NCBI GenBank assembly: GCA_905233695.1
Contig: CAJODN010000003.1
Coordinates: forward strand, 1,542 to 65,541
DNA: 64,000 nucleotides
Source: an uncultured Lachnospiraceae bacterium
Lineage (GTDB): Bacteria; Bacillota; Clostridia; Lachnospirales; Lachnospiraceae
Reading direction: 5' to 3'
A model generated the notes under the pieces. It did no database searches. It saw only the letters and a program-made list of their open reading frames with translations, and was not told where the DNA came from. This document shows, in pieces, positions 45,586 through 47,820 of this stretch. The number at the start of each line of letters is the position of its first letter. The stretch's first letter is position 1. The translations under genes and the position numbers were made by a program.

Positions 45586-46926
45586 TTGCATGTCGAATTA
45601 AACTTTGGTATAAGAATAATTGAGATGCTTCTTTCGAAAGAAGGAGGCGATAGAATTAACATTTCACAGAAATTGTCTGACAAGTATGATGAGATTAAGG
45701 TAATATATGAATCGGCAGCCAGTCTCGTAATACTTGTAAGGCTAAAGAGTCTTAGGCACGAACGAATTATCAAGAGAATTGCAAAAAGTTCGGATAAAGG
45801 TCGTGACAATTCTTTAAAAGAGGCTGACATCCTCTTGAATCTGAGACATCCCAACATACCTATACTCTACGATCTTGAAGAAGATGAAGATTACTTCTAT
45901 CTGGTAGAGGAATATATTGTCGGAGAGTCTATGGCAGATTATTTATATCTGCATCAAAGCATTTCCCATAGAGAGCTTATACGGATAGCGACGGAATTAT
46001 ATAACGTACTGGAGTACCTCCATAACTTCGAGACACCGATCTGCTATCAGGATATGAAGCTCGAGCATATCTATTTATCGAAGGGGCGAATAGTCCTTAT
46101 CGATTACGGTATTGCAACTTATCTTAGGGATAAAGAAAGTCCTATGTACGGAACACTTTCATATGTATCGGAGGCGCAGCTCCAGGGTAAATGTGACGTG
46201 TCAAATGACATTATAAGTACCAAGGTAGCGCTTAAGAAAATATATGAAAGCTCTAAGGAGAAGCGCAGCCTTCCGATAGAACGTCTGTTAAAGTGTGATG
46301 TTAACGGCACGGCTACGGAAGAAAAGCTAAGGTGGCTTTTCCTTTTGGCAGACGAAAATAAGGAAAAGAAGCATCTCGATGTGAATATAGCGGTTGTAGG
46401 AAATGATAAGGGGATAGGCGTAAGTCACATTGCCATAGCTATTAATTGTTATCTTAACAATAAGGGTATTGAAAGCTTTTATATTGATGAAAGTGCAGGC
46501 GATGTAATTGAGAAACTGTCGGCAAGAGACAGAAGCCTTAATGAGAAGGATAATATTATATACCACGATTGTTTTAAGGGGCTTCGCCGAAGCGGCGAAG
46601 CTTTAGAAGAAAAAATCCCTCCGACCGGGCTTATGGTCATAGACTGCGGTACGTGTATCGATAAAGCGAAGAGAAGCGACATTATAATATATGTCGTATC
46701 ATCAAGGCTCTATAAGAGTAACGAAATTGATGATGTAGCCTTCGAGAAAAGAACATGTGTCATAGTTAACCCCAGGTCTGTGTGGACAGGAGTAGAGATT
46801 GCCAAGATGCTTTCGAAGAAAGTTTACTCATTTCCCATAGATGAAGATCCGTTTGCTATAACCCAAGTCAAAAACCAGGTGTTAGATAGAATTATTAGTA
46901 AGATTATACCAAATAGTTCGGATTGA
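45586..46926 (+). CDS. Protein kinase-like domain fused to a MinD/TadZ-like P-loop domain
   Basis: Residues about 30-200 are a Ser/Thr kinase-like fold: Lys63 in RIIKRIAK, EADILLNLRHPNIP, catalytic YQDMKLEH (HRDLKPEN type, with Asn replaced by His161) and metal-binding Asp173 in LIDYG. The Gly loop is not recognisable. Residues about 265-446 resemble a SIMIBI ATPase with a variant P-loop (VVGNDKGIGVSHIAIAINCYL) and LMVIDCGT. No TM is seen. The start is uncertain: the track uses a TTG with no clear ribosome-binding site, while an AAGGAGG lies about 60 nt inside. The next gene follows within 12 nt. Function unknown. Confidence 0.7.
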   Translation: MHVELNFGIRIIEMLLSKEGGDRINISQKLSDKYDEIKVIYESAASLVILVRLKSLRHERIIKRIAKSSDKGRDNSLKEADILLNLRHPNIPILYDLEEDEDYFYLVEEYIVGESMADYLYLHQSISHRELIRIATELYNVLEYLHNFETPICYQDMKLEHIYLSKGRIVLIDYGIATYLRDKESPMYGTLSYVSEAQLQGKCDVSNDIISTKVALKKIYESSKEKRSLPIERLLKCDVNGTATEEKLRWLFLLADENKEKKHLDVNIAVVGNDKGIGVSHIAIAINCYLNNKGIESFYIDESAGDVIEKLSARDRSLNEKDNIIYHDCFKGLRRSGEALEEKIPPTGLMVIDCGTCIDKAKRSDIIIYVVSSRLYKSNEIDDVAFEKRTCVIVNPRSVWTGVEIAKMLSKKVYSFPIDEDPFAITQVKNQVLDRIISKIIPNSSD

Positions 46927-46938
46927 CGGGAGAAAAAA

Positions 46939-47553
46939 GTGAGAGAACAATTTAAGATCAGAAGAAAGACACAGATTGCAATATACGGAACGGGAAGTAC
47001 AAGACTTGCAATTGCATTTGCTAATTACTTCGCAAGCTATCTTAAGAAAAAGGTGGCGCTGGGCGAAGTGGGTGAAGGCAATCTATCCGATATGTCAAAA
47101 GAAGATGTAAAAAGTAAGCTTACCGTATCCGAAGATAAGTCCCTCGTTGGCTTCAGGCGGATGAAGGTTGATTATTATCCCTATATTAATGAGGAGTCGG
47201 TTAAGGTCTTAGAAAGTGAACCCTACGACGTTATTATCTGGGATTACAAGAATATAAGCCATGGTTATATGAGTAGCTTCAAGCAATGCGACAGGAGACT
47301 TTTTCTATGTAATATTGCAAAATACAATAGGCGTTCCTTTTGTAGGATTAAATATGTATTTGAGAATGACATAGTGAATGTGGAAGTTTACAGTTATTTA
47401 CTTAATAAAAAGGACAAAAAGTGGTACAGAAATACCATGGGAAGGTCTAAGGTTCTTTCTGATGTCAGGGAGCTTCGCTTAATAGAGGATCCCGACAAGT
47501 TAACACACAGTGACATTATATTTCTAAGTAATCTGGCTGCCGCAAATTTTTGA
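46939..47553 (+). CDS. Degenerate P-loop protein, partner of the kinase fusion
   Basis: A 204-residue soluble protein with a Rossmann-like start (RRKTQIAIYGTGSTRLAIAFANYFASYLKKKVALGEVGEG) resembling TadZ/MinD-type ATPases, but the P-loop lacks the GK[ST] signature. YDVIIWDYKN is at the position of a Walker B strand. It starts at GTG after GGGAG, 12 nt after the kinase fusion, and probably works with it. ATP hydrolysis looks unlikely; a binding or scaffold role is inferred. I cannot name the family with confidence. Confidence 0.6.
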   Translation: MREQFKIRRKTQIAIYGTGSTRLAIAFANYFASYLKKKVALGEVGEGNLSDMSKEDVKSKLTVSEDKSLVGFRRMKVDYYPYINEESVKVLESEPYDVIIWDYKNISHGYMSSFKQCDRRLFLCNIAKYNRRSFCRIKYVFENDIVNVEVYSYLLNKKDKKWYRNTMGRSKVLSDVRELRLIEDPDKLTHSDIIFLSNLAAANF

Positions 47554-47569
47554 AAGGAGGAGCGAAATC

Positions 47570-47635
47570 AACGCAGGCGTCGGGTGAACCCGACATAGAA
47601 TAATCGGAAGATTCTTTTGTCTGCATGCCTGCGTT
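47570..47635. other. Structured element E5 after the kinase/P-loop pair
   Basis: An outer perfect 9-bp stem, AACGCAGGC/GCCTGCGTT, encloses GTCGGGTGAACCCGAC and AGAAT/ATTCT hairpins. A strong AAAGGAGG motif lies immediately before it with no ATG, GTG or TTG at useful spacing. Only a weak TTTT follows. It may be an RNA processing or regulatory element. Confidence 0.6.
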
Positions 47636-47688
47636 TTAAAAAACTGATAATACTACGGAATTCAATTGAAATAAGATATTAAGAAGTG

Positions 47689-47722
47689 CCACCGGGAAGA
47701 CTTTTCCCGGTGGTCTTTTTGT
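47689..47722 (+). terminator. Terminator upstream of the GH18 gene
   Basis: CCACCGGGAA/TTCCCGGTGG with a GACTT loop, followed by TCTTTTTGTG. It ends the kinase/P-loop transcript. Confidence 0.9.
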
Positions 47723-47820
47723 GTTAATATACTAGGGATTGAAGTAATACTTTGATACTGCTTGCAGTAGCAAAGTATTACTTGAAGACCTTAAAAACAA
47801 TATATCTAACGGGGACATCT

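Follow-up and report, generated by a model that had tools for sequence, protein, structure and literature searches.

A kinase-MinD/TadZ-like gene pair of Lachnospiraceae as a probable retained front end of a divergent Tad-like machine

TadZ has been described as a hub that recruits other parts of the Tad system (PMC6668835), and in a fitted model, dimers of Caulobacter CpaE ring the CpaF motor (PMC13170226). Proteins of the TadZ/CpaE type, such as Eubacterium rectale TadZ (PDB 3fkq), have a MinD/ParA-like fold, a deviant P-loop, and a fused regulatory domain. The two adjacent genes described here (gene 1 and gene 2) resemble them in all three respects, and relatives of the pair likewise occur in clusters with CpaF- and CpaB-like genes. 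However, the regulatory domain is a receiver in TadZ/CpaE and a kinase in gene 1, gene 2 is a lone domain, the pair has two paired domains without a Walker A lysine, and the pair's own locus in the window has no pilus genes left. The wider Tad system (CpaF, CpaB/RcpC, TadB/C, TadE, and Flp) has counterparts in the clusters of relatives, which encode a CpaF-like ATPase, a SAF protein, a membrane platform, and small hydrophobic pilin-like proteins. In these relatives, however, the ATPase and platform are divergent, and the genus to which the window belongs lacks both.

Two further systems are relevant. EssB of the T7SSb and other secretion-system kinases (PMC11217815) provide a precedent for a pseudokinase part in a Gram-positive secretion machine, although the architecture differs and neither EssC nor WXG100 proteins were seen here. 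For infC and Streptomyces sigR, a non-canonical start is repressed by IF3 (PMC5472188). Gene 1 appears to share with these genes a strong Shine-Dalgarno (SD) sequence and a start codon other than ATG, GTG, or TTG, conserved over species. It differs in being another gene, in having a start codon that varies between genera, and in having, within the window genus, an SD that is also sequestered by a hairpin.

The window is a 64,000-nucleotide stretch of DNA from an uncultured Lachnospiraceae bacterium. Two open frames lie on its + strand with a 12-nt gap, at 45586-46926 (446 aa if read from TTG) and at 46939-47553 (204 aa from GTG), and the first of these is open back to 45559. The features of the locus are as follows.

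45586..45614, + strand: probable promoter (TTGCAT, 17 nt, TATAAG), conserved in the genus alignment; found by inspection and weaker than the cut-off applied
45626..45649, + strand: leader hairpin with a GAAA loop that pairs the SD AAGGAGG (45641-45647); fold -13 kcal/mol, z -3.9
45655..45657, + strand: proposed ATT start codon, 7 nt after the SD; ATT or ATC in eight genus members
45655..46926, + strand: gene 1, a degenerate kinase domain fused to a MinD/TadZ-like domain; 423 aa if ATT at 45655 is the start
45673..46269, + strand: kinase domain with a shortened C-lobe, from Pfam and a motif table over about 65 relatives; end approximate
46378..46926, + strand: gene 1 C-terminal MinD/TadZ-like domain, motif GNDKGIGVSH without the Walker A lysine, from alignment and hhalign with the gene 2 family
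46939..47553, + strand: gene 2, a second MinD/TadZ-like domain with a P-loop shortened by four residues and without the lysine
47688..47724, + strand: terminator-like hairpin after gene 2

Gene 1 was found in all eight genomes of the window genus at 60-70% identity, and gene 2 and the same flanks lie beside it wherever the contig is long enough. An earlier note, made by a model from the sequence, had placed the pair between mecA and a surface hydrolase; these neighbors were confirmed as a divergent mecA (PF05389, 4e-65) on one side and a GH18/SH3 protein on the other. Nei-Gojobori dN/dS values were 0.04-0.27 in every comparison for gene 1, its two domains, and gene 2, and 0.01-0.05 for mecA. 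Therefore, both genes are under purifying selection, with looser constraint than mecA. These values, together with the open frames and synteny maintained in the genus, argue against the pair being a functionless relic that decays slowly. We consider that reading very unlikely, even though the motif erosion and missing partner genes described below would suit it.

To place the pair in a broader context, 200 Lachnospiraceae genera were surveyed, each represented by one genome, and the gene 2 profile matched 60 of them (E ≤ 1e-10). The earlier note had made its proposal depend on the two genes occurring together elsewhere, which proved to be common: gene 2 directly follows the kinase gene in 52 of the 60 kinase loci read. 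The kinase gene is divergent from mecA in 48 of these loci (in several others, the contig ends too soon to tell), and a GH18 gene is on the same strand as the kinase gene in 52. Furthermore, in six genomes without the pair (L081-L086), mecA and the GH18 gene lie close together. Given the recurring flanks and this adjacency, the pair occupies one fixed slot in a conserved mecA-GH18 backbone. The neighborhood in which the earlier note saw the pair lying alone is thus a backbone that also occurs without it. For the same reason, the GH18 hydrolase is unsupported as a functional partner. At four loci (L058, 9708-11162; L126; L128; and L135), the kinase is joined to one MinD-like domain and a separate gene 2 was not found alongside.

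This fixed housekeeping neighborhood, which holds across the family, also bears on whether gene 1 encodes an anti-phage defense kinase. PADLOC gives model hits to the kinase part, PD-T4-6 and mad6 (E 4e-21), but these span only the generic kinase fold and gene 2 has none, which makes a defense role the least probable of the readings considered here. A search of a viral structure library gave no match at E ≤ 0.001.

The second domain of gene 1 reads VVGNDKGIGVSHIAIAI. Its family profile and that of gene 2 matched in hhalign at 99.8% (E 1.4e-28); the two MinD-like domains of the pair are thus related. No Pfam or NCBIfam family matches gene 2. The AlphaFold2 model of gene 2 (pLDDT 77, pTM 0.77) matches MinD, Get3, FlhG, BcsQ, and ParA, with the E. 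rectale entry 3fkq at lower rank. A MinD/ParA-superfamily fold is supported by this model for gene 2 and by profile homology to gene 2 for the gene 1 domain. In the relatives read, the Walker A lysine (GK[ST]) is present in 0 of 63 gene 1 C-terminal domains and 0 of 52 gene 2 proteins. The Walker A stretch reads GxG[VT]TH in most relatives of both domains, and in gene 2 of the window genus it is additionally four residues shorter. Neither domain has the deviant Walker A with its GK[ST] lysine that defines MinD/ParA ATPases, and ATP turnover is presumably absent from both. The description of gene 2 as a MinD/TadZ-like protein lacking GK[ST] therefore stands, as does the fusion of such a domain to a kinase in gene 1. 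The variant P-loop that had been assigned to gene 1 is present as a motif (GNDKGIGVSH), but without the lysine.

For the kinase part, Pfam Pkinase matches residues 45-200 of the 446-aa frame (E 1.5e-23), and a Hanks-type kinase fold is further supported by PDB sequence matches and a fold search. The predicted model of gene 1 is weak (pLDDT 68, pTM 0.43), yet the fold search still finds protein kinases. Both folds that had been proposed for the pair, kinase and MinD-like, are thus supported, and the motifs YQDMKLEH and LIDYG and the absence of a Gly loop are as reported before. The window kinase retains a VAIK-like Lys, the αC Glu, the catalytic-loop Asp, and DYG. Relative to the full motif set of active Hanks-type kinases, it is missing the Gly loop (the region reads IYESAASLVI), the catalytic-loop Asn, and APE, and it has DYG in place of DFG. 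No kinase of the window genus has kept the Gly loop, the Asn, APE, or the last C-lobe helices; these kinases share DYG and have KL in place of KP. As judged from these motifs, the window kinase probably has no activity or very weak activity, although residual activity may persist because the VAIK-like Lys, the catalytic-loop Asp, and DYG are retained. A related proposal is that the kinase is still active and that the pair is a signaling module with its own targets. The retained Lys, αC Glu, catalytic-loop Asp, and DxG Asp and the low dN/dS over the kinase part favor this proposal, but the genus-wide losses weigh against it, and we regard it as improbable.

The gene neighborhoods of relatives point to the origin of the pair. 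Outside Lachnospiraceae, in other Clostridia (L147, L150, and L152), a compact cluster starts with the kinase fusion. Behind it come genes for a SAF/CpaB-like protein, one more protein, a P-loop protein, an ATPase (about 620-660 aa), and a large membrane protein, as well as for small membrane proteins that have an N-terminal hydrophobic stretch and look pilin-like by eye. Two other loci (L067 and L056) have the same layout with gene 2 as a separate gene; in both, the SAF domain is over the Pfam cut-off. For the SAF protein, pilus_cpaB stays below its cut-off. The cluster ATPase carries GSGKTT, has CpaF proteins as its nearest solved relatives (E 3e-10), and passes the T2SSE cut-off only just. 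The platform is the large membrane protein, for which the two members scanned gave no Pfam match. By these comparisons, the ATPase and SAF protein appear only distantly Tad-like. In Lachnospiraceae, the cluster is commonly split over two loci: the mecA locus holds the kinase gene, gene 2, and often SAF, and the second locus, which in several genomes is beside pyrimidine genes, holds the P-loop protein, ATPase, platform, and pilin-like genes. Gene 2 is present in 26 of the 28 genera with the cluster ATPase (hypergeometric P 6e-14). In the open-access literature searched, we found no description of either the kinase fusion or this divergent cluster.

Several other gene sets were observed in the course of this survey. 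The divergent cluster (P-loop, CpaF-like ATPase, large membrane, and small hydrophobic proteins) was also read at L072, L073, L074, L078, and L079, as it was at L147, L150, and L152. Additional copies are present at L076 (genome G193, contig C65) and L077 (genome G070, contig C17). Genes resembling VirB4/PrgI-type conjugation genes at L076 and three ATPase copies in G070 suggest that mobile versions of the cluster exist. Another recurrent set, seen at L060, L062, L068, L069, and L070, consists of a PP2C-like phosphatase, a kinase of 550-620 aa, a small membrane protein, and a very large surface protein.

The window genus retains only the pair from this cluster. A search of the window genome with SAF and ATPase profiles gave no match, and neither did a search of eight genomes of the genus with platform and P-loop profiles; the platform profile matched 7 of 7 genomes in a positive control. 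In the tree used, the rows with the machine are basal, which fits loss rather than gain of the machine. The state of the kinase varies over the same tree. Its motifs are largely intact in SAF-bearing loci and altered in many SAF-less loci, including one large SAF-less group with DLQPKN and often DFD. In a group of six genera that includes that of the window, the Gly loop is wholly or mostly lost and His mostly replaces the catalytic-loop Asn, a replacement that is also seen in some machine-bearing relatives. The raw association is strong: the DxK Lys is lost in 16 of 32 machine-less loci versus 0 of 20 SAF-bearing loci. However, there are about three decay changes on the tree versus 12 changes in machine status, and a paired test is powerless. 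Because decay represents so few events, we treat its association with machine loss as description only and do not adopt machine loss as its cause.

Based on these findings, the explanation we favor, with somewhat better than even confidence, is that the pair is the regulatory or positioning front end of a Tad-like type IV filament machine and has been kept alone after loss of that machine. The pair would probably be a TadZ-like hub in which the kinase domain of gene 1 takes the place of the CpaE/TadZ receiver, in a form that is reduced and non-catalytic here. By analogy with CpaE, the gene 1 C-terminal domain would most likely pair with gene 2, making the MinD-like dimer a heterodimer. Catalysis has probably been lost on both sides in the window genus, and the complex could serve as a scaffold, with the membrane or a pole as its probable site. 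The earlier suggestion of a free-standing, uncharacterized signaling or positioning module gives way to a reduced front end of a Tad-like cluster. Its hint of a pilus link is right in an evolutionary sense: the neighborhoods of relatives with CpaF-like clusters support the link, but such cluster genes are not in the window genome.

The window genome does have a Tad locus of the ordinary kind, L045, which lies on a different contig from the pair and includes genes for CpaF, TadB/C-like proteins, prepilin peptidase, and DUF6382-FHA. This raises the alternative that the pair works in trans for the standard Tad pilus, as an additional factor in its regulation or localization. Such a role has a parallel in L064 (8297-9925), where a kinase-P-loop fusion with an intact GAGKST adjoins an FHA protein inside a cluster with CpaF, TadB, TadC, and FHA homologues; this fusion is a possible catalytically intact relative, and its setting speaks for the favored explanation as well. 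However, the pair and the Tad locus of the window genome are on different contigs, and standard CpaF is present in 194 of the 200 Lachnospiraceae genera with or without the pair. Co-occurrence with so nearly universal a gene is uninformative and lends no support to a link between the pair and the standard Tad locus. We therefore consider action in trans unlikely, though less so than an active signaling kinase, and retain the front end of a lost machine as the preferred explanation.

The leader of gene 1 is unusual in its own right. The TTG at 45586, initially taken as the start, is very probably wrong: it forms part of a conserved -35-like box (TTGCAT, 45586-45591) that lies 17 nt before TATAAG (45609-45614), with both blocks conserved in the genus, and so should fall outside the mRNA. 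Downstream is the SD at 45641-45647, and an AUU/AUC start at 45655 fits best in the window genus. At three loci (L007, L008, and L012), there is no ATG, GTG, or TTG between the upstream stop and the N-lobe. The ATG at 45625 was rejected as a general start, since at these same loci it is either not in frame or runs into a stop; it is in frame in the window itself and is a possible start there.

This pattern extends to the gene 1 family. Among 68 relatives, 17 lack any ATG, GTG, or TTG start in the corresponding region, versus 0 of 51 for mecA and 0 of 47 for GH18 (weaker controls were gene 2, 2 of 55, and SAF, 3 of 23). Only 12 of the 68 have a canonical start with an SD match of at least 5, versus 47 of 51 mecA genes and 37 of 47 GH18 genes, yet 56 have an SD match of at least 6 before some in-frame codon. 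AUU, AUC, or AUA occurs at a spacing of 7-8 from the SD in 15 of 46 cases versus a 9% background (P 5e-6), and in 11 of 42 when the window genus is left out (P 8e-4); the rows are not independent in either calculation. Other loci have different codons at this spacing.

The leader hairpin of the window genus has 9-10 bp, a GAAA, GUAA, or GUAU loop, and a predicted stability of -11.7 to -13.1 kcal/mol (z -2.5 to -4.2). It is nearly invariant in the genus, and covariation is therefore uninformative. Sequestration of the SD by a hairpin is limited to the window genus and a few others and is not a family-wide trait, since mean SD accessibility equals that of mecA, GH18, gene 2, and SAF leaders. Expression of gene 1 in the window genus would accordingly be low and gated, by the SD-sequestering hairpin and by an AUU/AUC start that IF3 would repress.

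Taken together, these observations allow a joint reading that we put forward tentatively, at somewhat less than even confidence. A pilus-regulator family without canonical starts would have kept a strong SD and used AUU, AUC, AUA, or other codons, leaving initiation stringency (IF3) to set expression. The GNRA-type hairpin would be a second brake in the window genus, and the pseudokinase and the two lysine-less MinD-like domains would form a purely structural hub. The gene 2 family, which has no name, is now tied to a divergent Tad-like machine that occurs in gut and rumen Clostridia and that standard models hardly pick up. The findings suggest a TadZ-type hub that has outlived its pilus, with erosion of its kinase and ATPase motifs. 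Should the start-codon result be borne out, this gene family joins the few known to depend on a non-canonical start (infC and sigR), and predicted starts at such loci can land inside the promoter.

An Rfam scan of the gene 1 leader and the region after gene 2 gave nothing near the gathering score. The stretch directly after gene 2 (47554-47640) contains a long inverted repeat (AACGCAGGC ... GCCTGCGTT) with GGAGG ahead of it and has no Rfam match. Within the leader, positions 45628-45643 (CTTCTTTCGAAAGAAG) form a perfect 16-bp palindrome that is the sole copy in the genome at up to one mismatch and could be an operator.
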